DNA from: an uncultured Oscillibacter sp.
Lineage (GTDB): Bacteria; Bacillota; Clostridia; Oscillospirales; Oscillospiraceae
Direction of reading: 5' to 3'
DNA: 33,395 nt
NCBI GenBank assembly: GCA_946551795.1
Contig: CAMNRF010000018.1
Coordinates: forward strand, 1-33,395
Shown: one piece after another, positions 3,360-25,617 of the stretch
Position numbering within the stretch: position 1 is the stretch's first letter
Layout of the letters: each line of letters opens with the position of its first letter
Position numbers and translations under genes: made by a program
Notes under the pieces: generated by a model
Told to the model about the DNA's origin: nothing
What the model saw: only the letters and a program-made list of their open reading frames with translations
Database searches by the model: none

Positions 3360-3388
3360 TGGACACAGAGCGGAATATATGCTATAAT
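3360..3388 (+). promoter_or_regulatory. Promoter of the symporter-tyrA operon
   Basis: TGGACA (3360-3365), 17-nt spacer, TATAAT (3383-3388). It lies in an AT-rich island of about 150 bp between the divergent operons. Confidence 0.7.
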
Positions 3389-3452: not shown

Positions 3453-4673
3453 TTGAAAGTTCTGCTGAAAAAAGAAAACCTGTTCCTGCGGGTCGCCATC
3501 GGCTTCGTCCTTGGCGTCATCCTGGGCCTGACGGCCAAGGATTTCTCCATCGCCACCAAGGTGGTGGGCGACATCTACCTCAACCTCATCAAGCTGATGA
3601 TCATCCCCATCGTGGTCTGCGCCGTCTTCTGCGGCATCGCCAACATCAAAGACGGCACGCTCCTGCGCCGCATCGGCGTGCGCACCGTGGTGCTGTACGT
3701 GGTGATGTTCATTATCTGCGCCGTGATCTCCCTGGCCATTGCCTGGGTCATCCGGCCGGGCCTTGGCACCGTGTTTGAGAACGCCCCCGTCTACGAGGGG
3801 GAGATCACCACGCCCACCATCACCAGCTTCCTCATGACCATCGTGCCCACCAACATCATCAAGGCCGGGGCCGACGGCAGCACCCTGCCGGTGATTCTCT
3901 TCACCATTGTCTTCGCCGTGGCCATCCTCGCCATCGGCGAGAAGGGCCGCCCGGTGCTGGACTTCATGAACAGCCTGTCCGACGCCTTCTTCAAAATGCT
4001 GGGCTACTTCATGGAGATCTCCCCCATCGGCGTGCTGTCCCTGATGGCCTACTCCGTGGCCCAGTACGGCGCGGGCATTTTCAGCGCCCTGGCCAAGTAC
4101 ATCGGCACCTGCTGGCTGTGCTGCATCGTGGTGTTCTTCGTGGCCATGGTGCTGCCCACCTGCCTGTACACCAGGGTCAGTCCCGCGAAGTTCCTCAAGG
4201 CCTGCGGCAAGGTGGCGCTGGTGACGCTGTCCACCACCTCCTCCGCCGCCACCCTGCCCACCACCATCAACGTCAGCATGGAGGATCTGGGCGCGCCGGA
4301 GGGCGTCTCCAAGTTCACCCTGCCCCTGGGCTGCACCATCAATATGTGCGGCGGCGCCTGTTCCTTCTGTTGCCTGGCCGTCTTTGTGTCGGACTTCTAC
4401 AGCATCAACCTGCCCCTGGGCACCATTATCTTCCTGGTGCTGGTGGCCACGCTCCTGAACATGGCGGCCCCGGGCATCCCCGGCGGCGGCGTGGTGCTGG
4501 GCGCCTCCTTCCTCTCCATCCTGGGCCTGCCCATCGACCTGATGGGACCCATCAGCGGCTTCTACCGTCTGCTGGACATGGCCTTCACCACCATCAACGT
4601 GGAGGGCGACGTGGCCGCCAACCTGATGATCGCCAAGAGCATCGGCGAGTACGACGGCTCCATGGCGAAGTAA
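3453..4673 (+). CDS. DAACS-family (SLC1/GltP-like) symporter with altered substrate and sodium-site motifs
   Basis: A 406-residue inner-membrane protein of the dicarboxylate/amino acid:cation symporter family, close to the usual family length. The hairpin 1 serine-rich motif (TLSTTSSAATLPTT, ~268-281), hairpin 2 (GIPGGGVVLG) and the TM8 pattern are present. Two normally conserved positions differ. The TM7 NMDGT motif reads NMCGG (297-301), losing the sodium-site aspartate. The TM8 arginine that binds the acidic side chain in GltPh is Phe378 (DMAFTTINVEGD). Asp375, Asn382 and Asp386 remain. Substrates are therefore probably not aspartate, glutamate or C4-dicarboxylates. It starts with TTG, with AAGGAGAG 8 nt upstream. 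The tyrA-like gene follows after 10 nt, so an aromatic or other neutral amino acid is a reasonable guess. Confidence 0.85.
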   Translation: MKVLLKKENLFLRVAIGFVLGVILGLTAKDFSIATKVVGDIYLNLIKLMIIPIVVCAVFCGIANIKDGTLLRRIGVRTVVLYVVMFIICAVISLAIAWVIRPGLGTVFENAPVYEGEITTPTITSFLMTIVPTNIIKAGADGSTLPVILFTIVFAVAILAIGEKGRPVLDFMNSLSDAFFKMLGYFMEISPIGVLSLMAYSVAQYGAGIFSALAKYIGTCWLCCIVVFFVAMVLPTCLYTRVSPAKFLKACGKVALVTLSTTSSAATLPTTINVSMEDLGAPEGVSKFTLPLGCTINMCGGACSFCCLAVFVSDFYSINLPLGTIIFLVLVATLLNMAAPGIPGGGVVLGASFLSILGLPIDLMGPISGFYRLLDMAFTTINVEGDVAANLMIAKSIGEYDGSMAK

Positions 4674-4683
4674 GGGTGCGGTT

Positions 4684-6111
4684 ATGAGAATCGGCTATCA
4701 GGGCATCGAGGGCAGCAACTCCGAGGCCTCCGCCAGGAGCATGGCGGCGCGCCTGGGGTGGACGGAGGTGGAGTATGTCCCCCTGGTCCACTCCAAGGGC
4801 GTCGTGGACGCCCTCCGGGCGGGAGAGGTGGACTGCGGCGTCATGGCCACGCTGAACCACGTGGCCGGTGTGGTGCTGGAGACGGAGGCGGCCCTGCGGG
4901 GCCTGAGCTATCGGATGCTGGCTCTGGACTGCATTCCCATCCACCACTGCCTGTTTGTCAAGGACGCCTCCGTTCAGGAGATCCATACGGTGGCCTCCCA
5001 CATCCAGGCGCTGAAACAGTGCCGGGAGACCCTGGCCCGGGACTACCCCGGGGCCGCGTGGAGGGAGGAGGAGGACACCGCCATCGCCGCCAGGCACCTG
5101 GCGGAGGGCCTCCTGCCGCCGGACACCGGCGTACTGTGCCGCCGGGACGCCGGAGAGGCCTTCGGCCTGCACCTGGTGCGGGAGAACCTGGAGGACGACG
5201 CGGAGAACGCCACGGAGTTTGAGCTGATCCGCCTCAGCGAGCGGGGGCCGGACAGGCTGGTCGTCGTGGCGGGCCTGGGCCTGCTGGGCGGGTCCATGGC
5301 CAAGGCGCTGAAACGCTACACCGGCTACACCGTGTACGGCTGGAACCGCACCCGCTCCGTGGCGGAGGCGGCCCTGGCGGAGGGCGCCATCGACGGCATC
5401 GCCGACAGCGCGATCTTCGCCCAGTGCGACCTGCTGATCCCTGTGCTCTACCCGGAGGCCACCATCCGCTTTCTCCGGGAGACCATCCCCCTGATGAAGC
5501 GGGGGGCCCAGGTGGTGGACCTGGTGGGGATCAAGCAGCGGCTGGTGGAGGAGGTCACGCCCGTGGCCCTGGCCCAGGGGGTCCGCTACACCGGAGGCCA
5601 TCCCATGGCGGGACTGGCCAGGGCCGGGTACGAGCGGTCCACGCCGGACCTCTTCCAGGGGGCCAGCATGATCCTGGCGCCCACGGAGGCCACCGCCCCG
5701 GGGGACCTGGAGATGCTGGAGAGCCTCTTTGCCCAGGTGGGGTTCCGCCGGGTGAAGGTCTGCGACCCCCAGACCCATGACCGCATGATCGCCCACACGT
5801 CCCAGCTGGCCCACATCGTGTCCAACTCCTATGTCAAGAGCCCTGTCTCTCCGGACTACGTGGGCTTTGCCGGGGGGAGCTACAAGGACATGACCCGCAT
5901 CGCCTGCCTCAACGAGAAGGTCTGGAAGGAGCTGTTCCTGCTGAACCGGGACGCCCTCCTGCCGGAGATCGACCTGCTGATCCGCCACATGACGGAGCTG
6001 CGGGAGGCCATCGCGGCCGGCGACGGGGAGCGGCTGGAGGATCTGCTCCGCCAGGGCCGGGAGGCCAAGGAGCACATCGACGCGCTGAACCCGGACCAGC
6101 CGTCGGAATAA
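4684..6111 (+). CDS. tyrA: Fused prephenate dehydratase-like / prephenate dehydrogenase protein
   Basis: A 475-residue fusion. Residues 1-185 resemble the catalytic region of prephenate dehydratase (phenylalanine branch): IGYQGIEGSNS start, SHIQALKQC (105-113, matching SHPQ..QQC of E. coli PheA with Ser105 and Gln112), and a TEF in place of the catalytic TRF motif (Thr177 kept, Arg replaced by Glu178). The usual EN(S/T) motif is LNH (57-59). Residues ~190-475 are a prephenate/arogenate dehydrogenase (tyrosine branch): NAD-binding GLGLLG (197-202), GGHPMAG (304-310) with the catalytic His306, and the all-helical C-terminal half. No ACT domain or chorismate mutase domain is seen, so feedback control by Phe or Tyr would have to come from elsewhere. 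ATG start with a modest GGGTGCGGTT upstream. The dehydrogenase is confident; activity of the first half is uncertain. Confidence 0.85.
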   Translation: MRIGYQGIEGSNSEASARSMAARLGWTEVEYVPLVHSKGVVDALRAGEVDCGVMATLNHVAGVVLETEAALRGLSYRMLALDCIPIHHCLFVKDASVQEIHTVASHIQALKQCRETLARDYPGAAWREEEDTAIAARHLAEGLLPPDTGVLCRRDAGEAFGLHLVRENLEDDAENATEFELIRLSERGPDRLVVVAGLGLLGGSMAKALKRYTGYTVYGWNRTRSVAEAALAEGAIDGIADSAIFAQCDLLIPVLYPEATIRFLRETIPLMKRGAQVVDLVGIKQRLVEEVTPVALAQGVRYTGGHPMAGLARAGYERSTPDLFQGASMILAPTEATAPGDLEMLESLFAQVGFRRVKVCDPQTHDRMIAHTSQLAHIVSNSYVKSPVSPDYVGFAGGSYKDMTRIACLNEKVWKELFLLNRDALLPEIDLLIRHMTELREAIAAGDGERLEDLLRQGREAKEHIDALNPDQPSE

Positions 6112-6119
6112 GAGCAGAG

Positions 6120-6140
6120 AGGGACCGCACAGCGGTCCCT
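6120..6140. repeat. Left copy of 21-bp flanking direct repeat (half-terminator)
   Basis: Self-complementary AGGGACCGC-ACA-GCGGTCCCT, identical to 6361-6381. The left copy keeps the upstream AGAG of the original terminator but has lost its T run. Confidence 0.8.
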
Positions 6141-6360
6141 CAGGCTGTCGAAAAAGTCCTGACGGACTTTTCCGGCAGCCTGCTAATGTCTCAATTTTCA
6201 AAACGCGCAGCGTTTTGAAAATTTCCCGCTCCGCGGGGCAAACGCCTGCACAGCAGGCGTTTGCAGCCATTCGATCCAATTCGAGGCGGGCGCTGCCCCC
6301 TCGAGCTCTCCCGCGTCATGAAAGTCTATTCCTTCCATATAGTGTTTTTTTGACAAGCTG
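6141..6360. mobile_element. MITE-like palindromic element inserted in a terminator
   Basis: About 220 bp without a coding frame, bounded by imperfect inverted ends (CAGGCTGTCGAAAAA at 6141 and the complement CAGCTTGTCAAAAAA at 6360, 12 of 15 matching) and flanked by a 21-bp direct duplication. Inside are perfect hairpins at 6193-6223 (14-bp stem) and 6239-6263 (11-bp stem) and an imperfect one at 6142-6180. The organisation fits a miniature inverted-repeat element or another hairpin-type repeat; no transposase is in the window. Confidence 0.6.
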
Positions 6361-6390
6361 AGGGACCGCACAGCGGTCCCTCTCTTTTTC
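6360..6390 (+). terminator. Terminator of the symporter-tyrA operon (right half after insertion)
   Basis: 10-bp stem (6360-6369 with 6373-6382), ACA loop, then TCTTTTTC. Joined with the left copy it reconstructs a 13-bp perfect terminator, so the element appears to have inserted into it. Confidence 0.75.
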
Positions 6391-7291
6391 ACAGATACAC
6401 CTGTATATGGGGCAGGCGCTCCAGCTCCCGGCGGAGGCACTCCAGAAACGCCCCGGTGAGCTCCGGCCTGCGGCGGGGGCCCAGGAGGTAGAAGATCCGC
6501 TCCTCCGGCGGCCCCTCTTCCAGCTCCAGAATCCGGATGTCCACCCGCCGGCGCATGGAGAGGGCCGCGGACATGGGCGCCGCCGCCCAGCTGTCCGCCC
6601 AGCTTCCCCGCCAGCTGAAAAACTGCTCCAGCAGGGACATCTGGTCCAGCACCGCCCGGGGCTGTGCCCCGCCGGAGAACCAGAAGCTGTGCCAGAGGTC
6701 GAACTCCGGGTTCCAGGGCAGCCGCAGCTCCCGGGAGGGGTCCAGCAGGGAGGGGTGCACCCGGGGCGGCAGCTCGCAGCCGCTCCCCGCCGCCAGCACC
6801 ATGGGCTCCCGGTAGGCGGGGATGGTCTCCACCTGGGGGTAGAACATATCGTCGGAGATCAGCGCGATGTCCAGCGTCCCCTCCGCTATGTACTGATACG
6901 CCTCCCAGGAGTGGCAGTTGTGGAAGGTCAGGGCGCAGGCGGGGTTCTCCTCCAGAAAGGCCCGGAATACGGCCGGCAGCAGGTAGGTGCTGACACTGCC
7001 CACGGACCCCACCCGCAGCGTCCGGCCCCGGTCCCGCCGGGCCACGTCCCGGGCCTCCTGCCACACCTGCCGCCATTTCTCCGCCACCTGGACGAAATCC
7101 TGCCCCTGCTCCGTCAGCTCCAGCCGCCGCTGGCCTCGCTTCCGCTCCAGCAGGACGCAGCCCAGCTCCTGTTCCAGTGCCCGGATGTGGCGGCTCACCG
7201 CCGGCTGGGTGATGTACAGCGTCTGGGCCGCGCCGGAGAGGCTTCCGGTCCGCACGGCGGCCAGAAATACCTCGATCTCCTGATGTGTCAT
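6389..7291 (-). CDS. LysR-family transcriptional regulator
   Basis: A 300-residue protein of standard LysR length. The N-terminal winged helix is clear (residues 1-60: EVFLAAVRTGSLSGAAQTLYITQPAVSRHIRALEQELG), and a periplasmic-binding-protein-like effector domain starts near TLRVGSVGSVSTYLLP (~91). The effector is unknown. It is divergent from the MATE exporter gene and separated from it by 110 nt that hold a perfect palindrome, so it probably controls that exporter and itself. ATG start with GGGGGCAGG upstream. The 3' end abuts the terminator at 6360-6390. Confidence 0.9.
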   Translation of the reverse strand: MTHQEIEVFLAAVRTGSLSGAAQTLYITQPAVSRHIRALEQELGCVLLERKRGQRRLELTEQGQDFVQVAEKWRQVWQEARDVARRDRGRTLRVGSVGSVSTYLLPAVFRAFLEENPACALTFHNCHSWEAYQYIAEGTLDIALISDDMFYPQVETIPAYREPMVLAAGSGCELPPRVHPSLLDPSRELRLPWNPEFDLWHSFWFSGGAQPRAVLDQMSLLEQFFSWRGSWADSWAAAPMSAALSMRRRVDIRILELEEGPPEERIFYLLGPRRRPELTGAFLECLRRELERLPHIQVYL

Positions 7292-8787: not shown

Positions 8788-11748
8788 TCACGTGCTGTAC
8801 ATGGGGAGGGTCCCGTAGTATTTGGAGATGGTGGAGTCGTCCGTGACGTAGGGCCCCACATCCTTTGGGCCGTACCGCAGGAGAAAATAGTCCAGGTCGT
8901 GGAGGGCCTTGTACTCGTTGACGGCGTGCTCCATGGAGTGCTCTTCCTTCGCCAGCCGGGTCTCCTCCCGGAGATAGCCCAGGGCGGAGCGCAGGCTCTC
9001 GCTTTTGGCGGCGGCCGTCAGCTCATCCAATACTGCCACAAAGTCGTCCGCGGTATACTTGTTGTCGGTGACCACCGGGGTTCCGTATTTGGCGTAGAAC
9101 TGATCCTCGGTGAGCCCCTCCCTCCGGCAGATCTCCTCCATGTCCAGCTTCCCGTCATAGGCCCAGGCGAACTGGATCTCGCCCGTCTTGTCAAAGCAAT
9201 TCCAAAAAAGGTCCTCCGGGTTCTCCAGACGCGCAAAGATATTCCCCCACAGATACTGGTGCTCCCACCAGAGATTTGCCTCCTTTACCACCAGGTTCAG
9301 CCGCCGGGCGTGGGCCGGGTCCATGCCCGCCAGGGCCTCCTCCCGGGCCTTTAGGACCTGCTTCTCCGAGGGGGCGGGGGGGCTTTTTTCCAGCTCCGCT
9401 CTGGGGACGATGACCGCATGGCCCCGCACGCCCTCCGCCGTCCCCTCCGGGACCCGGACGAACAGGCGGTAGGTGCCCTCCTCCGCCGGAGGGGAGACCT
9501 GAAAGACGGAAGCACAGCGGAGCACGCCGTCCGTGCGGCGGCTGGATACGGAGTAGTAAGAGCGGTTGGCGGGGTCCTCCTGTCCTCTGGCAAAGCCCAC
9601 CTGGAGGGATTCCCCCGTCCGGGCGGAGACGCTGTACCGGATCTGGTCACCGTAGTGCAGCTCATACTCCCCCAGCCACCAGACGCCGCCCTGCGCCGGA
9701 CCCAGGCGGGGGATATTCAGCTCTCTGACGACGATTCCCCCGGAGGAGGTGTCCGCGGTCTGGGCCCCGTCGCCGGGGTCCTCCAGGTCCGCCAGCAGGG
9801 CCTCCGCCTCCTCCCTGGACATGGGGGAGACCGCCGTGATGGCGCCCTCGGCGTCCCGGGTGACCTTGAGGTCCACCGTGCCCTGGGGATTCACGGCCAG
9901 CGTGACAAAGGAGCTGTCATTTGCCCGCTGGTCCAGAAAGACCCGCGCCAACTGGCCCTGGTAGCGGTACTCCGCGCCGTTTTTGACGATGCCGTGGGCG
10001 GCGTACTCCCGGACCTGCCGGGCCTCCAGCTCCGCCTTCACGGCCTCCAGCTCCTGATCCCGGTCCAGGGCCCCCAGCAGCATGGAGGCGAAGTTCAGCC
10101 GTCCGTCCGTCTGTGCTCTGGCCAGCCAGGTCTCCAGTTCCCCCTGGCCCATGTGGTCCGTCAGCAGGGAGAAGGGGGCGATGTCCCGGGCCTCGTAGGC
10201 CCTCTCCGCCAGACGCGGGATCAGGGGGCTGTCCGGCTCTAGCTGCTTGAGGGCCACGGAGAGGAAATTGATGGCGTCGTCGCTCCGGAGCCGCTCCAGC
10301 ATGGCCTCCTGGGCCGCCTCGTCCAGCAGGGCGAACACCGCCCCGAACTGGGGGAGGGCCTCCTGGCTGTAATACCGCTCCGCCAGGGCGGCGGGGTCGG
10401 CGCCCCGGATGTTCCGCACGCTGACCACCAGCGGGCGGGTGATGGGAAGGGCCTGCTCCTCGGACCGAAGGCGGCCCAGCAATGTGGACAGAGCCGCCAT
10501 GGCCGTCCGGTCTCCGATCACACTCTTGCAGGCGTCGGCAAAATAGACGGTGATGGTGCCGCCTCCCGGCAGGGAGGCTCCGGCGCTGGCATAGCCTCCC
10601 GCCGGCTCGCCGATGTTCCAGGCCAGCTCAATGAGATACGGCTCCTGGTAATAGCACTCCTGGGTGTAGAAGGACGCGGAGGAATCGGCGCTTGCGAAGG
10701 CGCCGTCCCGGGCGGGGCCGCCGTAGGCCCCCGCCGCCGCCGCGCCCGCCGCCACGGCAATGGTCAGAACCAGGGACAGCGCGGCCGCCGCCCGGGTGGT
10801 CTTTTTGAAATTCATGATGGCTGTCAGCCTCTCTTTCAGCAGTTTTCCGTCCTCGCTCAGCGTCGCCGAGCCGAAGGGCGCTCCCTGGGGCCCGCCGGCC
10901 TCCGCGGCCCGGAGCAGCATGTCCCCGTAGGCCCGCCGCTCCGGGCCGTCCAGGGCGCGGAGGACCGACTCGTCGCAGGCCAGCTCGCAGGCCCGGCCGA
11001 TTTTCCGGGCCATCAGCCACACCAGGGGGTTGAACCAGTGGAGGCACACCGCCGCCTGCACCAGCCACTTGCAGGCCAGGTCCCGCCGGCGGCAGTGGGT
11101 CAGCTCGTGGAGGAGCGTGTACCGGAGGTCCCGCTCCGGCAGGTCCGGGGTGGTCAGGACGATCCGGGGGTGGAGGAGGCCCAGCAGCATGGGGGAGGAG
11201 GCCGCGGGGTTGACGCACAGCTCCACGGGCCGCCTCACTCCCGCCTCCGCCCCGATCCGGGCCAGGCGGTCCAGCAGGGCGGGGTCGGAGACCTCCCGGC
11301 ACCCGGCCCGGAGGGACCGGGAGAAGTCCTGGTAGACGGTGATCTTCCGTACCAGCAGGATCAGCGCGCCCCCCAGCCAGACGGCGGAGAGGATGTCCCA
11401 GGGGTCCGGAGCGGTCTCCACCGGCGCCGGCTCCGCGGGAACACCGGTTGGGCGGAGCACCTCGCCGCCGTCCCCGGCGGGAGCCGGGAGATCGGGGAGG
11501 GTATCGTCCATCACCGGGGCGGAGATAACCGGCGGGGACGCCGGGCCGGCCTGCCGGAACAGCGCGTCCACCGGGCTCCCCTCCGGAGAGAGGGGCAGCA
11601 GCAGCCGGGCCACCGCCGCCAGCCAGATGTAGTACTGCCACCGCCTGCTGAGGCGGTCTTTCACCAGCGGCCCGCACAGCAGCAGCGCCAGGATCACCCC
11701 GGAGCCGGAGACGGACAGGGACAGCACGGTCTTGAAGACGCCGCTCAT
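8788..11748 (-). CDS. Very long M56-family (BlaR1/MecR1-like) membrane metallopeptidase with novel sensor region
   Basis: A 986-residue protein. Residues ~1-320 are an M56 peptidase: N-terminal helices, a loop rich in Pro/Ala, a zinc motif HELTH (214-218), and downstream FNPLVWLMARKIGRACELACDESVL with the third zinc ligand region. A membrane helix near 315-340 (AAALSLVLTIAVAAGAAAAG) is followed by about 640 residues predicted to be outside the cell. In BlaR1 this part is a ~250-residue penicillin-binding domain; I see no SxxK...KTG arrangement here, so the signal may not be a beta-lactam. The ATGA overlap with the BlaI-type gene indicates translational coupling and a shared pathway in which the peptidase relieves repression. 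Family firm; ligand unknown. Confidence 0.85.
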   Translation of the reverse strand: MSGVFKTVLSLSVSGSGVILALLLCGPLVKDRLSRRWQYYIWLAAVARLLLPLSPEGSPVDALFRQAGPASPPVISAPVMDDTLPDLPAPAGDGGEVLRPTGVPAEPAPVETAPDPWDILSAVWLGGALILLVRKITVYQDFSRSLRAGCREVSDPALLDRLARIGAEAGVRRPVELCVNPAASSPMLLGLLHPRIVLTTPDLPERDLRYTLLHELTHCRRRDLACKWLVQAAVCLHWFNPLVWLMARKIGRACELACDESVLRALDGPERRAYGDMLLRAAEAGGPQGAPFGSATLSEDGKLLKERLTAIMNFKKTTRAAAALSLVLTIAVAAGAAAAGAYGGPARDGAFASADSSASFYTQECYYQEPYLIELAWNIGEPAGGYASAGASLPGGGTITVYFADACKSVIGDRTAMAALSTLLGRLRSEEQALPITRPLVVSVRNIRGADPAALAERYYSQEALPQFGAVFALLDEAAQEAMLERLRSDDAINFLSVALKQLEPDSPLIPRLAERAYEARDIAPFSLLTDHMGQGELETWLARAQTDGRLNFASMLLGALDRDQELEAVKAELEARQVREYAAHGIVKNGAEYRYQGQLARVFLDQRANDSSFVTLAVNPQGTVDLKVTRDAEGAITAVSPMSREEAEALLADLEDPGDGAQTADTSSGGIVVRELNIPRLGPAQGGVWWLGEYELHYGDQIRYSVSARTGESLQVGFARGQEDPANRSYYSVSSRRTDGVLRCASVFQVSPPAEEGTYRLFVRVPEGTAEGVRGHAVIVPRAELEKSPPAPSEKQVLKAREEALAGMDPAHARRLNLVVKEANLWWEHQYLWGNIFARLENPEDLFWNCFDKTGEIQFAWAYDGKLDMEEICRREGLTEDQFYAKYGTPVVTDNKYTADDFVAVLDELTAAAKSESLRSALGYLREETRLAKEEHSMEHAVNEYKALHDLDYFLLRYGPKDVGPYVTDDSTISKYYGTLPMYST

Positions 11749-17617: not shown

Positions 17618-17624
<7 letters not shown>
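17196..17624 (+). CDS. accB: Biotin carboxyl carrier protein of acetyl-CoA carboxylase
   Basis: A 142-residue protein: N-terminal ~35 residues (IYDLIACFDRSTAQTMRLSL), a Pro/Ala linker (~40-70), and a biotinyl domain with EAMKMM (biotin on Lys106) and the preceding GTFYAAPSPEDAPFV segment typical of bacterial AccB. It carries carboxybiotin between AccC and AccAD to form malonyl-CoA. ATG preceded by GGAGAGG. Its last codons overlap the accC start by 7 nt. No biotin ligase gene lies in the window. Confidence 0.95.
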
Positions 17625-19005
<1,381 letters not shown>

Positions 19006-19009
<4 letters not shown>

Positions 19010-19860
19010 ACAGCGTCTTTGCCAAACGGCGCTCCCGCCTGCTGGCCATGAAGGCCCTGCGGGACAGCTACGCCGCCGGGGAGCGGAGCTTCACCTGCCC
19101 CCATTGCGGAGAGGACAGCGACCGCAGGCAGGTGGCCCAGGCCCTGTACGTCTGCCCCAAATGCGGCTTCCATCTCCCCCTGGGGGCCTACTGCCGCCTG
19201 AGCACCATTCTGGACCCGGGCTCCTTCCGGGAGCTGAACGGGAGGCGTACCGCCGGAGATCCCCTGCGCTTCCCCGGCTATCGGGAGAAGCTGGCCGCCG
19301 CCCGGAGAAAGACGGGTCTCCAGGAGGCCGTGGTCACCGCCGCGGGGACCATCGACGGACGCAGGTGCGTGGTGGGCGTCATGGACAGCCGCTTCCTCAT
19401 GGGCAGCATGAGCGCCGCCGTGGGGGAGAAGATCACCCTGGCCATTGAATACGCCGCCAGGAATAAGCTGCCCCTGATCCTCTTTGCCGCCAGCGGAGGG
19501 GCCCGGATGCAGGAGGGCATTCTGTCCCTGATGCAGATGGCCAAGACCAGCGGCGCCCTGGCCCGGTTCTCCCAGAAGGGCCTGCTGTACATCTCCGTGC
19601 TGACGGACCCCACCACCGGAGGCGTCACCGCCAGCTTTGCCTCCCTGGGGGACATCATCCTGGCGGAGCCGGGGGCTTTGATCGGCTTTGCCGGGCCCCG
19701 GGTGATCCAGCAGACCATCGGGGAGACCCTGCCGGAGGGGTTCCAGCGGGCGGAGTATCAGGACCGGCACGGCTTTGTGGACGCGGTGGTGCCCAGGGGG
19801 GAGCTGCGGGAGACCCTGTCCCGGCTGCTGCGGCTGCACGAGAGGGGAGGACGGTCATGA
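19006..19860 (+). CDS. accD: Acetyl-CoA carboxylase, carboxyltransferase beta subunit
   Basis: A 284-residue protein with an N-terminal zinc ribbon (Cys31, Cys34, Cys50, Cys53: CPHC and CPKC) and a crotonase-like carboxyltransferase fold: [33 protein letters not shown], and [28 protein letters not shown] segment. With AccA it transfers CO2 from carboxybiotin to acetyl-CoA. It overlaps accC and accA by 4 nt at each end. Confidence 0.95.
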
Positions 19861-20672
19861 GGGAGCTGACACCGGCCCAGCGGGTGGCCATTGCGCGCCA
19901 TCCCCAGCGGCCCAATCTCACGGACTACATCGGCGCGCTGTTCACCGACTTTTTTGAGCAGCACGGGGACCGCCTCAGCGGGGAGGACGGGGCCGTTCTG
20001 GGGGGCGTGGCCCTCTACCACGGAAGGCCCGTCACCGTCATCGGCACCCGCAAGGGCCGCACGGCGGAGGAGAACCTCCGCTGCAATTTCGGCATGCCCG
20101 GTCCCGCGGGATACCGCAAAGCCCTGCGGCTGATGAAGCAGGCGGAGAAGTTCCACCGGCCCATTCTCACCTTTATTGATACCGCCGGCGCCTATCCCGG
20201 TCTGGAGGCCGAGGCCTGGGGGCAGGGGGAGGCCATCGCCCGGAACCTCTATGAGATGAGCCGCCTGACCGTGCCCGTCATCTCCGTCATCACCGGAGAG
20301 GGCAACAGCGGCGGCGCCCTGGCCCTGGGCGTTGCCAACCGGGTGCTGATGCTGGAAAACGCCGTCTACGCCATCCTCTCCCCGGAGGGCTTCGCCTCCA
20401 TCTTGTGGAAGGACGCCCAGCGGAGCCGGGAGGCCTGTGAGCTGATGAAGCTGACGGCGCCGGATCTTCTGGAGCTGGGGATCATCGACGGGATCATCCC
20501 GGAGGTGGAGGGCGGCGCCCATCTGGCCCCCCGGGCGGTCCTGAAGGAGACGGACCGCTGCGTCAGGAGCCATCTGGCGGAGCTGCTTCGTCAGAGCGGA
20601 CCGGCCCTGGCGGAGGGGCGGTATCAGAAATTCAGACGGATGGGCGGCGGCGTCCAGAAGGAGGAGGCATGA
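19857..20672 (+). CDS. accA: Acetyl-CoA carboxylase, carboxyltransferase alpha subunit
   Basis: A 271-residue protein, somewhat shorter than E. coli AccA (319) because the N-terminal helical extension is reduced, as is common in Firmicutes. Diagnostic segments are [77 protein letters not shown] and [12 protein letters not shown]. It partners AccD. The ATG at 19857 is in the accD stop (ATGA) and its own stop overlaps the fabH start in the same way. Confidence 0.95.
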
Positions 20673-21616
20673 AGGGAATCAGGATCAAGGGCACAGGCCG
20701 CTGTGTGCCGGAGCGGGTGGTCACCAATGAGGACCTGGCGGCCCGGATGGACACCAGCGACGAGTGGATCACCAGCCGCACAGGCATCCGGCGCCGCCGT
20801 CACTGCACGGCAGAGACCCACAGCACCCTGTGCGCCGGAGCGGCCCGGGCGGCCCTGGCGCGCGCCGGCGTCTCCCCGGAGGAGATCGGGGCCTGCATTG
20901 TGGCCACGGTGACGGCGGACGATCTGGTGCCCTCCGCCGCCTGCGTTTTGCAGCGGGAGCTGGGCCTGCCCCAGGACATCCCCTGCTTTGACCTCAGCGC
21001 CGCCTGCACCGGGTTCCTCTTCGCCCTCCACACCATGGAGTGCCTGCTGAACGCCTCGCCCCGGAGATTCGGCCTGGTGGTGGGGGCGGAGGTCCTGAGC
21101 CGGGTCACCAACTGGGAGGACCGGGGCACCTGCGTCCTCTTCGGCGACGGAGCCGGGGCGGCGGTGGTGGAGTGCCGGGAGGGCTGGCCCTCCATCGGCG
21201 CGGTGCTGGGCTGCCACGGGGACGACCGGCTGCTGCGTCTGCCCGGCGTGGAGCGGGGAGGACGGAGCCTGATCTCCATGGAGGGCACCCGGGTCTTCAA
21301 ATTCGCCGTGGAGGCGGTGCCCTGGTGCGTGGACCGGGTGCTGGAGCGGACCGGCCGCACCGTGGAGGACGTGGATTTCTTCGTCTTCCACCAGGCCAAC
21401 GCCCGCATCATCGACCTGGCGGTGCGGAAATACCATATTCCGCCGGAAAAGTACTATAAGAACATCGCCGAATACGGCAACACCTCCGCCGCCAGCATCC
21501 CTCTGGTGCTCAGCGAGCTGGAGGAGCAGGGCCGGGTGGGACCCGGCTCTCGGACGCTGGTGGTGGGTTTCGGCGGCGGGCTGACCTGGGGCGGCGCCAT
21601 GGTGGAGTTTGCGTGA
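20669..21616 (+). CDS. fabH: Beta-ketoacyl-ACP synthase III
   Basis: A 315-residue thiolase-fold condensing enzyme that primes chain synthesis by joining acetyl- or branched acyl-CoA with malonyl-ACP. The catalytic triad is visible: Cys113 (DLSAACTGF), His241 (FHQANARI), Asn271 (YGNTSAAS), at the same positions as in E. coli FabH. ATGA overlap with accA. It ends the first tightly packed half of the cluster; a 103-nt repeat-containing gap separates it from fabK. Confidence 0.95.
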
Positions 21617-21633
21617 TCAGGATTGTATGTTAA

Positions 21634-21710
21634 GGTTTAGGGCCGCCCTTTTCAAAGGGCGGCGGGGTCTGGGGCAAAGCCCCGGCGGTTTCGAGCGAAG
21701 CGAGAAGTGA
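21634..21710. repeat. Hairpin-rich intergenic repeat inside the fab cluster
   Basis: A perfect 10-bp hairpin (21642-21651 with 21654-21663, loop TC) is followed by a GGGGC-AAA-GCCCC hairpin (21671-21683). A related unit with the same CTTTTCAAAG centre and CGGGGCAAAGCCCCGG core is at 33324-33367, and TTTAGGGCCGCCCT recurs at 29739. No T run follows, so full termination is not expected here. Confidence 0.6.
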
Positions 21711-21719
21711 GGTGTCGTT

Positions 21720-22667
21720 TTGAAAAAGCTGAACGAAATTCTGGGGACGGAGTTCCCCATCATCCAGGGCGGTATGGCCAACATTGCCACCGGGGAATTC
21801 GCCGCCGCCTGCTCCAACGCGGGGGCCCTGGGCATGATCGCCACCGGCGGCTGGGACGCGGAGCGGCTCCGGCAGGAGATCCGGCGGGCCAGGGAGCTGA
21901 CGGACAGGCCCTTCGGCGTGAACCTGATGCTGATGAACCCCTGCGCCGACGAGATGGCGGAGGTCATTGTCCAGGAGGGCGTCCGGGTGGTCACCACCGG
22001 CGCGGGCAACCCCGGCAGGTACATCCCCGCCTGGAAGGAGGCCGGGATCAAGGTTCTGCCCGTGGTGGCGGCGGCGGTGCTGGCCAAGCGGCTGGAGCGG
22101 TACGGCATCGACGCCGTCATCGCCGAGGGGACGGAGTCCGGGGGCCATGTGGGGGAGATGACCACCATGGCTCTGGTGCCCCAGGTCATCGACGCGGTGA
22201 GCGTCCCCGTGGTGGCCGCCGGGGGCATCGCCGGAGGACGGCAGATGGCGGCGGCCATGGCCCTGGGGGCCTGCGGCGTCCAGGTGGGCACCTGCCTGCT
22301 GGCAAGCCAAGAGTGCCCCATCCACGAGAACTACAAGCAGGCCATCCTGCGGGCCGGGGACAGCGACACGGTGGTGACGGGCCGCTCCGTCGGCGGCCCA
22401 GTGCGCTGCCTGAAAAACAAGATGACCCGGGAGTACCTGGCCCTGGAGAAGCGGGGCGCCACGTTGGAGGAGCTGGAGACCGTCACTCTGGGGGGCCTGC
22501 GCCGGGCGGTATTCGACGGCGACATGGACCGGGGCAGCGTCATGGCCGGACAGGTGGCAGGGATGCTCCATGAGATCCGGCCTGTGCGGGAGATCTTTGA
22601 GGAGCTGTGCGCCCAGGGCCCCGCCGTGCTGGCGGAGACTGCCCGGGAATGGGGGGCGGAGCGGTGA
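21720..22667 (+). CDS. fabK: Enoyl-ACP reductase II (flavin-dependent FabK)
   Basis: A 315-residue TIM-barrel flavoprotein of the nitronate monooxygenase/FabK family. It starts with LNEILGTEFPIIQGGMANIA and has GALGMIATGGW, FGVNLMLMNP, AEGTESGGHVG, PVVAAGGIAGGRQMAAAMALGA and GVQVGTCLLAS, the FMN phosphate-binding segments. It performs the NAD(P)H-dependent last step of each elongation cycle, replacing FabI. TTG start at 21720 with GTGAGG upstream. Its stop overlaps the fabD GTG start. FabK enzymes are generally insensitive to triclosan. Confidence 0.93.
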   Translation: MKKLNEILGTEFPIIQGGMANIATGEFAAACSNAGALGMIATGGWDAERLRQEIRRARELTDRPFGVNLMLMNPCADEMAEVIVQEGVRVVTTGAGNPGRYIPAWKEAGIKVLPVVAAAVLAKRLERYGIDAVIAEGTESGGHVGEMTTMALVPQVIDAVSVPVVAAGGIAGGRQMAAAMALGACGVQVGTCLLASQECPIHENYKQAILRAGDSDTVVTGRSVGGPVRCLKNKMTREYLALEKRGATLEELETVTLGGLRRAVFDGDMDRGSVMAGQVAGMLHEIRPVREIFEELCAQGPAVLAETAREWGAER

Positions 22668-23614
22668 GGCTGGGCTTTCTGTATGCCGGACAGGGCAGTC
22701 AGCACGCCGGTATGGGGGCGGACCTCTATGAGGCGTACCCCGCCTTCCGGGCGGTGCTGGACCAGGCGGCGGGCGAGGTGGACTTCGACCTGCGGGAGAC
22801 CTGCTTCCGGGACCCGGAGGGCGTTTTGAACCAGACCCGCTGCACCCAGCCCTGCATGGTGGCCTTCGCCGCGGGCCTGACGGCGGTGCTGGCGGAAAAG
22901 GGGATCGTCCCCTCCGCGGCGGCGGGCCTCAGCCTGGGGGAGTACTCGGCCCTCCACGCCGCCGGGGTCTTCGACGCCGGGACCGCGGTGCGGCTGGTTG
23001 CCTTCCGTGGCAAGGCCATGGAGGAGGCTGCCGGCGGCCGCGACAGCGCCATGATGGCCGTGCTGAACCTGGACCGGGAGACGCTGCAGTCCGCCTGTGA
23101 CGAGGCCTCTGCCCTGGGCACCGTGGTCATCGCCAACTACAACTGCCCCGGCCAGCTGGTGATCGGCGGAGACCGGGCGGCGGTGGAGAGAGCCGCGGCG
23201 CTGGCAAAGGAGCGGGGCGCCCGCCGCTGTCTGCCCCTGAAGGTCAGCGGACCCTTTCACACGCCCCTGATGAAACCCGCCGGCGCGGCACTGGAGGCGT
23301 ACTTCCGGAGCGTCCCCTTTGGAGAGCCTCAAATTCCGGTGGTGTTCAACTGCCTGGGGGATGTGCGGGAGGAGGGGACCTCCATCCAGTCCCTGCTGGT
23401 GCGGCAGGTGCAGAGCAGCGTGTATATGGAGGACTCCATCCGGAAGCTGGCCGCCATGGGTCTGGACGCCCTGGTGGAGATCGGACCGGGCAAGGCGCTG
23501 GCCGGCTTTGTGAAAAAGACCGTGCCGGGGTTTCCCGTGTGCTCCGTGGAGACCGCGGCGGAGACGGAGGCCCTGGCGGACACCCTGAGAGAGATCACGG
23601 AGGGAAGAACATGA
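22664..23614 (+). CDS. fabD: Malonyl-CoA:ACP transacylase
   Basis: A 316-residue alpha/beta hydrolase-like acyltransferase that moves malonyl groups from CoA to AcpP. Motifs: N-terminal FLYAGQGSQHAGMG, nucleophile GLSLGEYSA (Ser90), Arg in AFRGKAMEEA, and His199 (GPFHTPLM), matching E. coli Ser92/His201. The frame is open from 22607, but the family begins exactly at the GTG at 22664, which overlaps the fabK stop (GTGA). Confidence 0.94.
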   Translation: MRLGFLYAGQGSQHAGMGADLYEAYPAFRAVLDQAAGEVDFDLRETCFRDPEGVLNQTRCTQPCMVAFAAGLTAVLAEKGIVPSAAAGLSLGEYSALHAAGVFDAGTAVRLVAFRGKAMEEAAGGRDSAMMAVLNLDRETLQSACDEASALGTVVIANYNCPGQLVIGGDRAAVERAAALAKERGARRCLPLKVSGPFHTPLMKPAGAALEAYFRSVPFGEPQIPVVFNCLGDVREEGTSIQSLLVRQVQSSVYMEDSIRKLAAMGLDALVEIGPGKALAGFVKKTVPGFPVCSVETAAETEALADTLREITEGRT

Positions 23615-24357
23615 TGGATTTTACGGGAAAGACCGCCCTGGTCACCGGCGGCAGCCGGGGGATCGGACGGGCCGTATGCCTGGAGCTGGCGAAGGGCGGG
23701 GCCGGCGTGGTCTTGTGCTATGCCGGAAGTGAGACTGCCGCCGGGGAGACAGTCCGGGCGGCGGAGGCGCTGGGGGCCAGGGCGCTGGCGGTCCGCTGCG
23801 ACGTGTCCGACGCCGGGCAGGTCAGCGGCATGGTCGACGCGGTGCTCCACGGCTTCGGGAGAATCGACATTCTGGTGAATAACGCCGGGATCACCCGGGA
23901 CAATCTGCTGATGCGCATGAGCGAGGAGGATTTCGACGCGGTGATCGCCGCCAATCTGAAGGGGACCTTCCTGTGCATGAAGGCCGTCAGCCGTCTGATG
24001 CTGAAGCAGCGATATGGCCGCATTGTCAGCCTCAGCAGCGTGGTGGGCCTCCGGGGCAACGCCGGGCAAGTGAACTACGCCGCCAGCAAGGCCGGGATCA
24101 TCGGCATGACCAAATCCCTGGCGAAGGAGCTGGCCGGCCGGAATGTCACCGTCAACGCCGTGGCCCCGGGCTTCATCGGCACCGATATGACTGCCGCCAT
24201 GCCGGAGGCGGCCCGGGACGCCGTGCTGGCCTCCATTCCCATGAACCGCATGGGCACGGCGGAGGAGGCGGCCCGGGCCGTGGCCTTTCTGGCCAGTGAC
24301 GAGGCCGCTTACATCACCGGCCAGGTGCTGGCGGTGGACGGCGGCATGTCCATGTAG
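23611..24357 (+). CDS. fabG: 3-oxoacyl-ACP reductase
   Basis: A 248-residue short-chain dehydrogenase that reduces beta-ketoacyl-ACP with NADPH. It shows TGGSRGIG cofactor loop, NNAG, the catalytic Ser143, Tyr156 and Lys160 (YxxxK), and the C-terminal GQVLAVDGGMSM ending typical of FabG. The start is the first of two in-frame ATGs (23611/23614), with GGAGGGAAG 4-10 nt upstream and overlap with the fabD stop. Confidence 0.95.
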   Translation: MMDFTGKTALVTGGSRGIGRAVCLELAKGGAGVVLCYAGSETAAGETVRAAEALGARALAVRCDVSDAGQVSGMVDAVLHGFGRIDILVNNAGITRDNLLMRMSEEDFDAVIAANLKGTFLCMKAVSRLMLKQRYGRIVSLSSVVGLRGNAGQVNYAASKAGIIGMTKSLAKELAGRNVTVNAVAPGFIGTDMTAAMPEAARDAVLASIPMNRMGTAEEAARAVAFLASDEAAYITGQVLAVDGGMSM

Positions 24358-24375
24358 AGAGGGAGGGAGAGCGTT

Positions 24376-25617
24376 ATGGAACGACGCAGAGTCGTCATCA
24401 CCGGCATGGGCGCCGTCACGCCCCTGGGCCTCACCGCGGCGGAGAGCTGGCGGGCGGTCCGGGCGGGGGAGTGCGGCATCGGGCCCATTACCCAGTTCGA
24501 CCCCGCCGGCATGAAGGTGCGCCTGGCCGCGGAGGTCCGCGGCTTTGAGGCGGAGGCATATATCCCGAGGCCGGAGGCCAAACGCATGGGCCGCTTTACC
24601 CAGTTTGCCGTGGCGGCGGCCAGGCAGGCCCTGGCGGACGCCGGGTTTACCCCGGAGGAGGGGGAGCTGGGCCGCTGCGGCGTCATGGTCTCCAGCGGCA
24701 TCGGGGGGCTTTCCATCACCGAGGAGGAGCACGACCGGGGCCTGGCCCGGGGCTGGGACCGGGTGTCCCCCTTCTTCATCCCCTCCGGCATCTGCAACAT
24801 GGCGGCGGGACAGGTGGCCATCGCCTCCGGCTTCCGGGGCATGTGCACCTGCCCGGTGGCCGCCTGCACCGGGGGTACCTACGCCGTGGGAGACGCCTTC
24901 CACGCCATCCGGGACGGCTATGCCGAGGCCTGCCTCTGCGGCGGCACGGAGTCCGCCGTCACGCCCCTGGCGGTGGGAGGCTTCACCTCCATGCGGGCCC
25001 TGACCCAGACGGAGGACCCCAGCCGGGCCTCCATCCCCTTTGACAGGGAGCGGAGCGGCTTCGTCCTGGGGGAGGGGGCGGCCATCTTGCTGCTGGAGGA
25101 GCTGGAGCACGCCCGGCGGCGGGGGGCGAAGATCTACGCCGAGCTGGCAGGCTGTGGCGCCGCCTGCGACGCCTACCACATGACCGCGCCCCGTCCGGAC
25201 GCCAGCGGGGGTGCCGCCGCCATGAAAATGGCCCTGGAGGATGCCGGCGTCCCGGCGGAGGCGGTGGGCTACATCAACGCCCACGGCACCTCCACTCACC
25301 TGAACGACGCCATGGAGACCGCCGCCGTCAAGACGGTGTTCGGTCCCCATGCCCGCAGGCTGGCCATGAGCTCCACCAAGTCCATGACCGGACACATGCT
25401 GGGGGCGGCGGGGGCTGTGGAGGCGATGTTCACCGCCCTGTCTCTGCGGGACGGCTTCCTGCCCGCCACCATCCACTATCAGACGCCGGACGAGGAATGC
25501 GACCTGGACGTGGTGCCAAACCAGGGCCGCGCCGCCGACCTGGAGTACGCCATGAGCAACTCCCTGGGTTTCGGCGGACACAACGGAAGCATTCTTTTGA
25601 AGAGATGGGAGGACTGA
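24376..25617 (+). CDS. fabF: Beta-ketoacyl-ACP synthase II
   Basis: A 413-residue elongating condensing enzyme, the usual FabF length. Catalytic residues Cys164 (VAACTGGT), His303 (NAHGTSTHLND) and His340 (SMTGHMLGAAG) sit at the same positions as in E. coli FabF. N-terminus RRVVITGMGAVTPLG is typical. ATG with GGGAGGGAGAG upstream, 18 nt after fabG. No separate FabB is in the cluster. Confidence 0.95.
   Translation: MERRRVVITGMGAVTPLGLTAAESWRAVRAGECGIGPITQFDPAGMKVRLAAEVRGFEAEAYIPRPEAKRMGRFTQFAVAAARQALADAGFTPEEGELGRCGVMVSSGIGGLSITEEEHDRGLARGWDRVSPFFIPSGICNMAAGQVAIASGFRGMCTCPVAACTGGTYAVGDAFHAIRDGYAEACLCGGTESAVTPLAVGGFTSMRALTQTEDPSRASIPFDRERSGFVLGEGAAILLLEELEHARRRGAKIYAELAGCGAACDAYHMTAPRPDASGGAAAMKMALEDAGVPAEAVGYINAHGTSTHLNDAMETAAVKTVFGPHARRLAMSSTKSMTGHMLGAAGAVEAMFTALSLRDGFLPATIHYQTPDEECDLDVVPNQGRAADLEYAMSNSLGFGGHNGSILLKRWED

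Follow-up and report, generated by a model that had tools for sequence, protein, structure and literature searches.

What would a protein do that joins a prephenate dehydratase (PDT)-like domain directly to a prephenate dehydrogenase (TyrA)-like domain, and is its altered PDT half still an enzyme? The question is raised by a gene of an uncultured Oscillibacter sp., which lies in a stretch of 33,395 nucleotides that we analysed as a whole (contig CAMNRF010000018.1; hereafter the window). The gene is a single open reading frame on the forward strand, from 4684 to 6111, which encodes 475 amino acids with no internal stop. The features of the gene and its immediate surroundings are as follows.

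3360..3388, forward strand: sigma-70-like promoter with extended −10 (TGGACA-17-TATAAT), an 11/12 consensus match only, 64 bp before the symporter start
3453..4673, forward strand: SDF-family symporter with a TTG start, PF00375 over its full length
4684..6111, forward strand: PDT–TyrA fusion, starting 10 bp past the symporter stop
4690..5232, forward strand: PDT-like domain, residues 3–183; Asn58, Ser105, Gln112 and Thr177 kept; Leu57, His59, Asp131, Arg153 and Glu178 altered
5233..5256, forward strand: linker, about residues 184–191, the point at which the gene is separated in loci L040, L041, L043, L044 and L045 (see below)
5257..6108, forward strand: TyrA-like domain; GGHPMAG His306 and DMTR Arg405 kept; Asn221 in a WNRT motif
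6119..6141, no strand assigned: first copy of a 23-bp hairpin, just past the fusion stop
6360..6382, forward strand: second copy of the 23-bp hairpin, followed by a T run, terminator-like
6389..7291, reverse strand: LysR-type regulator, convergent to the fusion

A PDT-like and a TyrA-like domain in one chain

The preliminary description of this gene had proposed a one-chain fusion of a PDT-like domain to TyrA, lacking ACT and chorismate mutase domains, and the Pfam matches bore this out. PF00800 (PDT) matched residues 3–183 with 117.2 bits (cut-off 25.2, E 9.3e-34), so the dehydratase match looked for in residues 1–185 is present. PDH_N (TyrA nucleotide-binding) matched residues 205–355 with 78.5 bits and PDH_C (TyrA dimerisation) residues 361–457 with 64.7 bits, both above their cut-offs, and an NAD-binding model also matched, overlapping the TyrA domains. 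No ACT or chorismate mutase domain was matched in the fusion up to E 1. Both halves missed the NCBIfam equivalog cut-offs: NF008865, the best of the three PDT models listed, gave 87.1 of 219 bits, and the TyrA half gave 137.1 of 295 bits with NF006307 and 149.7 of 902 bits with NF011381.

The predicted structure of the fusion had a mean pLDDT of 73.9 and a pTM of 0.48, with residues 370–426 below 50. Its PDT half superposed on solved PDT chains at 2.2–4 Å, those found nearest by fold search including 6vh5, 2qmx and 3mwb, and its TyrA half met solved TyrA chains only at an rmsd of 11–13 Å. Structure prediction and fold search together support both predicted folds, that of the TyrA half only loosely.

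The single-chain form recurs at four other loci, with 93, 92, 79 and 79% identity to the window copy, and at a fifth, distant one (L074; 60% identity in the PDT half and 69% in the TyrA half). An assembly or sequencing artefact is ruled out by these six fused copies in different genomes and by related split copies in which TyrA has its own start and ribosome site.

The fusion belongs to a three-part cassette

The fusion is one form of a recurrent cassette made of an SDF symporter, a PDT-like part and a TyrA-like part, which we found in 12 copies: six fused (the window, L036, L037, L038, L039 and L074), five split (L040, L041, L043, L044 and L045) and one consisting of symporter and PDT only (L042). 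By position and contig, loci L036, L037 and L039 coincide with the copies in genomes G470, G434 and G015, and the distinct members number 12 including the window. In the split copies, PDT and TyrA are neighbouring genes in different frames that overlap by 8 bases or lie 1 to 4 bases apart, and TyrA has its own start with a GGAGG- or AAGGAAG-like, ribosome-site-like sequence; the L045 contig begins inside the PDT gene. In L042 the symporter and the PDT-like gene are followed by a hairpin, and no TyrA was found in the remaining 189 bases of the contig. Overall, the TyrA-like part adjoins the PDT-like part in 11 of the 12 copies. Of the 11 copies with enough upstream contig to tell, 10 are immediately preceded by an SDF symporter, whose stop overlaps the PDT start or lies up to 12 bases from it. 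This co-directional symporter, 10 bp upstream in the window and absent from the preliminary description, is the most telling part of the context.

The copy without an adjoining symporter, L043, has prfB on the opposite strand upstream of it. A gene named by eye as prfB adjoins the cassette both there (split, without symporter) and in L038 (fused, with symporter), apparently the same locus in two states. From the TyrA tree, read by eye, at least two changes between the fused and the separate state are required.

An all-against-all comparison of nine loci revealed no fourth gene recurring as the three core genes do; other ORFs were shared there only by pairs of loci, such as prfB by L038/L043 and further ORFs by L038/L042 and L041/L044. 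A LysR gene adjoins the fusion in the window, L036, L037 and L039, and is not part of the conserved core because it is absent beside L038. No T-box or other Rfam element was found beside the cassette in the window, L037, L038, L041 or L044. Between the fusion and the LysR gene of the window lie two identical 23-bp hairpins, GAGGGACCGCACAGCGGTCCCTC, with a further palindrome between them noted by eye. Counting both strands, this hairpin has 4 matches against a mean of 0.02 in shuffles, and the pair may represent a small mobile or attenuator-like element.

The PDT half has pocket changes and is under purifying selection

The preliminary description had also held that the PDT half keeps Ser105, Gln112 and Thr177 while changing the TRF Arg to Glu and the EN(S/T) motif to LNH. 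All of this is confirmed in the sequence, which reads TEF at 177–179 and LNH at 57–59. We compared the 12 cassette PDT copies with 19 ordinary PDT sequences. Asn58, Ser105, His106, Gln108, Gln112, Thr132, Thr177 and Phe179 are kept in all 12 cassette PDTs. Residue 178 is Glu in six of them, Asp in five, Gln in one and Arg in none, against Arg in 18 and Lys in one of the 19 ordinary PDTs. Of the EN(S/T) motif, the Asn is retained in 12/12 cassette copies and the Glu and the Ser/Thr in 0/12; residue 59, ordinarily Ser, is His in 11 of the 12 and Ile in L074. Five further changes run through the whole clade, each in 12/12: Phe37 to Ser, Pro55 to Ala, Asn131 to Asp, Ser153 to Arg and Ala157 to Gly, with Arg153 and Asp131 found in 0/19 ordinary PDTs. 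The loss of Arg at 178 together with its gain at 153 would suggest a rearranged charge pattern and not decay. The new pocket is not uniform, because L074, the most distant fusion, has neither His59 nor an acidic residue at 178.

Excerpts from the literature bear on residues of this pocket: changing the same Thr (Thr177 position) in a fungal PDT abolished activity (PMC11980547), both binding and catalysis are said to depend critically on the TRF triad (PMC10845154), and E159 of the E. coli enzyme is reported as important for binding (PMC8192741). At the position matched to E159 in our own alignment, the cassette copies carry Leu, Asn, Met, Gln or Arg.

Purifying selection acts on all three parts. 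Seven pairs for each part (six among the window, L036, L037 and L038, plus L040/L044), computed with our own Nei–Gojobori script, gave dN/dS values of 0.10–0.21 for the PDT half, 0.10–0.20 for the TyrA half and 0.07–0.12 for the symporter. A degenerate pseudo-domain is ruled out by the PDT values in these seven pairs and by the kept catalytic residues. Because the pocket changes are clade-wide, Asn58, Ser105, Gln112 and Thr177 stand in 12/12 copies and dN/dS is low, the PDT half is, judged by these residues and rates, re-specialised and not decaying. The 12 cassette PDT halves form one clade in the PDT tree (90/93), and together with the PDTs of two small genomes (G482 and G752) they form one clade against the 19 ordinary PDTs (100/99). 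The identity of the PDT half to ordinary PDT genes is 24–37% among the matches listed.

The TyrA half and the symporter are also distinct

Comparison of 11 cassette TyrA copies with 22 ordinary TyrA sequences showed that His306 of GGHPMAG and Arg405 of DMTR are invariant (11/11 and 22/22). Residue 221, in the WNRT motif, is Asn in 11/11 cassette copies, and Asp in 18, Asn in three and Ala in one of the ordinary TyrA. Further changes in the cassette copies are Phe/Tyr371 to His (11/11), Arg408 to Cys (11/11) and Glu312 to Ala (10/11). The WNRT motif suggests a possible preference for NADP, a weak hint because Asn221 also occurs in 3/22 ordinary TyrA. The rule for arogenate-type enzymes, in the excerpt of its source, is an acidic residue at plant position 222 (PMC5681985). 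The region tentatively placed at that position reads T-S-Q-L-A-H as in ordinary TyrA, with no acidic gain seen. The 11 cassette halves form one clade against the 22 ordinary TyrA (100/100), with a program warning of long branches; the ordinary TyrA of G048, one of the long branches warned of, joins this clade next. Identity of the TyrA half to TyrA of the genus is 42–47%.

Like DctA, GltP, SstT and GltPh, the symporter matches PF00375 over its full length, but it is distant from the NCBIfam models of known substrate (DctA, GltP and SstT) and misses their cut-offs, at 203.3 of 513 bits for the best and 179.5 of 638 and 98.6 of 308 bits for the others. With GltPh it has Asp394, Thr398, Asn401 and Asp405 in common, and it differs in Arg397 (Phe), Arg276 (Thr), Asp390 (Tyr), Ala391 (Arg) and the NMDGT motif (NMCGG). 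In this family, Arg397 is the residue that binds the acidic side chain, and the amino group is bound by Asp394. Because Arg397 is lost and Asp394 kept, a neutral or aromatic amino acid would, by analogy, be a likely solute of the cassette symporter. The binding-site segments are nearly invariant in 10 cassette symporters, with one I/M position varying and, in L039, additionally one T/A, one V/I and one unreadable letter. A search of 391 class genomes (E ≤ 1e-90) returned the window's own symporter as the only match, so the symporter was not seen apart from the cassette in this sample, which held only one genome with the cassette.

Distribution and host pathways

As to how widespread the fusion is, a point raised by the preliminary description, it was found in 4 of the 86 genomes of the genus and, as noted, in six of the 12 cassette copies. 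At E ≤ 1e-15 the PDT half matched in 13 of 394 genomes of the order, the 12 matches besides the window having 27–37% identity in open frames of 285–644 aa. A scan of named genomes yielded 12 loci, including 10 cassette members (L036 to L045) from sources named Oscillibacter, Firmicutes bacterium, Oscillospiraceae bacterium, Eisenbergiella and Lachnospiraceae bacterium. L047 (Verrucomicrobia) is an ordinary PDT of the ENQ/TRF type, with 34% identity over part of its length. In L046 (Cellulosilyticum ruminicola, 8898–10255), a segment of about 0.8 kb splits a PDT-like gene of the cassette kind; this segment carries an opposite-strand ORF that is transposase-like by eye.

A profile search of 391 class genomes (E ≤ 1e-35) gave three matches, the window and the two small genomes G482 and G752. 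Among 297 genomes of the order of G482 (E ≤ 1e-25) there were six: G482, G752, G857 (which carries the fusion L074) and three ordinary-looking PDTs in frames of 268–390 aa. Plasmid carriage was not found in 74 matching plasmid records, none of which covered 80% of the query; among the 15 matches listed, only the TyrA half was matched.

All four fusion-bearing genomes of the genus have exactly one further PF00800 gene and one further PDH_C gene. In the window's own genome (listed as 86% complete), the search for a stand-alone pheA was answered by a chorismate mutase–PDT gene on a contig shared with chorismate synthase and EPSP synthase. Read from its first ATG, this gene encodes 378 aa, and its ACT match falls slightly short of the Pfam cut-off. 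The other PDH_C gene of this genome is an ordinary TyrA beside DAHP synthase. Of the preliminary view that both branch-point steps to Phe and Tyr are joined here, the architecture stands, but this genome carries its own PDT and TyrA genes at other places. A housekeeping role in Phe and Tyr synthesis is ruled out for the genus by the separate PDT and TyrA genes in 4/4 fusion genomes. Chorismate synthase is present in 4/4 fusion-bearing Oscillibacter genomes and type II mutase in the 2/2 tested. Together with the DAHP and EPSP synthase genes of the window's genome, this suggests that the Oscillibacter hosts are capable of prephenate synthesis.

Three more distant genomes show no evident source of prephenate in the searches made. 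In G857 (listed as 98% complete) the fusion is the only PF00800 gene, and PF01817 found no type II chorismate mutase. G482 and G752 (0.9 and 1.2 Mb, both listed as 100% complete) each carry a single ACT-less PDT and gave no PDH_C, chorismate synthase or PF01817 match. In 14 control genomes, chorismate synthase was found in 14, PF01817 in 13 and PDH_C in 12, so the PF01817 and PDH_C searches can miss capable organisms. The stand-alone, ACT-less PDT-like genes lie at L078:9089–9727 (G482) and L079:9189–9740 (G752), and their neighbours look different between the two genomes.

A proposed uptake-linked enzyme pair and its alternatives

We propose, with roughly even confidence, that the cassette encodes a re-specialised working enzyme pair, in one operon with its own SDF symporter, which acts on a cyclohexadienyl compound. 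The parts would be co-transcribed. The symporter would import a small acid or an amino acid. A cyclohexadienyl compound, either the solute itself, prephenate, L-arogenate or a close analogue, would be converted by the PDT half to a Phe-level product and by the TyrA half to a Tyr-level product. This proposal is supported by the adjoining TyrA (11/12), the upstream symporter (10/11) and its not having been seen apart from the cassette, by the low dN/dS and kept residues, by clades apart from the ordinary paralogues and by the separate housekeeping genes. It is weakened by the missing TRF Arg, the altered position matching E159 and the different pocket of L074, as well as by the apparent prephenate capacity of Oscillibacter, by L043 lacking the symporter and by L042 having no TyrA in reach. 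Of the two readings first offered for the PDT half, that of an active enzyme with different specificity now appears the better supported, at the expense of that of a degenerate sensor.

A more specific form of this proposal, which we put forward tentatively as possible but doubtful, is salvage: gut anaerobes would take in either the dicarboxylate prephenate or the amino acid L-arogenate through a dedicated SDF symporter and turn it into both Phe and Tyr by means of a single bifunctional enzyme. Salvage would account at once for the symporter, the lack of ACT, the pairing of precisely these enzymes, the stand-alone PDTs and the genomes in which no type II mutase was found; with arogenate as the solute, the amino-acid traits of the symporter and the acid replacing Arg178 would make sense as well. 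It is weakened by Oscillibacter seeming able to make prephenate and by a TyrA half with no clear arogenate signature, as that rule is given in the excerpt of its source. A full-text search of the open-licence literature, limited to six phrases, found no paper on uptake or bacterial exchange of prephenate or arogenate, which also counts against salvage.

Alternatively, the fusion might be a feedback-insensitive second supply of Phe and Tyr that draws on internal prephenate and, having no ACT, escapes inhibition by Phe, with the symporter importing aromatic amino acids on the same demand signal. Such a role fits the full PDT and TyrA domain matches without ACT, the genes for making prephenate in the Oscillibacter hosts and the LysR regulator adjoining in four loci. 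It sits poorly with the altered binding motifs of the PDT half, with G857, where the fusion is the only PDT yet no type II (PF01817) chorismate mutase was matched, with sister PDTs in two genomes without a chorismate synthase match, and with the negative Rfam search, T-boxes included, of the flanks of the cassette in five sources; we hold it conceivable, though rather improbable. If instead the PDT-like half were a non-catalytic ligand-binding domain, sensing a metabolite so as to regulate the dehydrogenase or the operon, the loss of the TRF Arg and of EN(S/T) would be accounted for, as would the stronger divergence of the PDT half than of the TyrA half (60% versus 69% identity, window versus L074), and the PDT fold is that of periplasmic binding proteins. 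Against it, Thr177, Ser105, Gln112 and Asn58 persist in 12/12 copies, and the PDT-like part is a gene of its own in six, separate from TyrA in five loci and with no TyrA in reach in L042. Sister PDTs also occur in two genomes without a PDH_C match, a search that misses 2/14 controls. The earlier suggestion of a degenerate prephenate/Phe sensor controlling the attached dehydrogenase is weakened by these observations, and we regard a sensor domain as unlikely.

ACT-less PDT relatives of the BacA kind exist, and the pair could belong to a specialised pathway and act on another cyclohexadienyl substrate, such as an amino- or iso-prephenate analogue, or carry out a BacA-like non-aromatising decarboxylation. 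The pocket-region changes in both halves, including Phe/Tyr371 to His and Glu312 to Ala in the TyrA half, would agree with this. The BacA group (prephenate decarboxylase) has lost the catalytic Thr, but Thr177 is kept here, and no further gene recurs like the three core genes in the nine loci compared, which makes such a pathway unlikely in our view.

For the preferred reading of an uptake-linked enzyme pair, the symporter pairing together with G857, in which no type II mutase and no other PDT were found, points to enzymes used on an imported solute. If this solute were prephenate or arogenate, a late intermediate of the shikimate pathway would be exchanged between bacteria. Were salvage true, a cell without chorismate mutase could make Phe and Tyr, and communities could cross-feed at the level of prephenate or arogenate. 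The clade-wide pocket changes also provide a natural experiment on substrate recognition by PDTs.

Relation to known proteins and other features nearby

PheA (chorismate mutase–PDT–ACT or PDT–ACT) shares with the fusion the PF00800 domain and Asn58, Ser105, Gln112 and Thr177, but the fusion has no mutase and no ACT, and Arg178, Glu57 and Ser59 are replaced. With TyrA prephenate/arogenate dehydrogenases it shares PDH_N, PDH_C, His306 and Arg405; unlike ordinary TyrA, the cassette TyrA forms its own clade and carries the changes at 221, 312 and 408. PDT and TyrA catalytic domains also occur in one chain in the TyrA–AroQ–PheA–ACT protein of Archaeoglobus (PMC1173090), and a triple fusion is reported in Archaeoglobus and, as a related form, in Ca. 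Huberarchaea (PMC11237513). As described in excerpts of these sources, the Archaeoglobus protein has TyrA at its N terminus and contains AroQ and ACT, whereas the window fusion has PDT at its N terminus and lacks both; unlike the Archaeoglobus and Ca. Huberarchaea fusions, it adjoins a symporter and occurs in bacteria. GqqA of Komagataeibacter, according to an excerpt of its description, is likewise a PDT-family protein with a further reaction, that of an acylase, but it includes an ACT domain, has no TyrA part in its 281 aa and retains both Glu positions considered in that source (PMC8192741). No PDT–TyrA arrangement of the present kind was found described in the open-licence literature. All parts of the cassette come from known families; a PDT–TyrA chain without mutase or ACT, combined with its own type of symporter, is a rare arrangement.

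Some other features were noted near the cassette. In L037, a c-di-GMP-I riboswitch (4835–4968, 61 bits) precedes a 1192-codon open frame upstream of the cassette. In the window, a gene on the reverse strand (8788–11748) encodes a 986-aa protein with a BlaR1-type M56 peptidase domain, 70–72% identical in L036 and L037. Further along, the forward strand from 17618 to 25614 holds a fatty-acid synthesis cluster with no relation to the fusion, with genes for acetyl-CoA carboxylase subunits, a ketoacyl-ACP synthase III and a beta-ketoacyl synthase.
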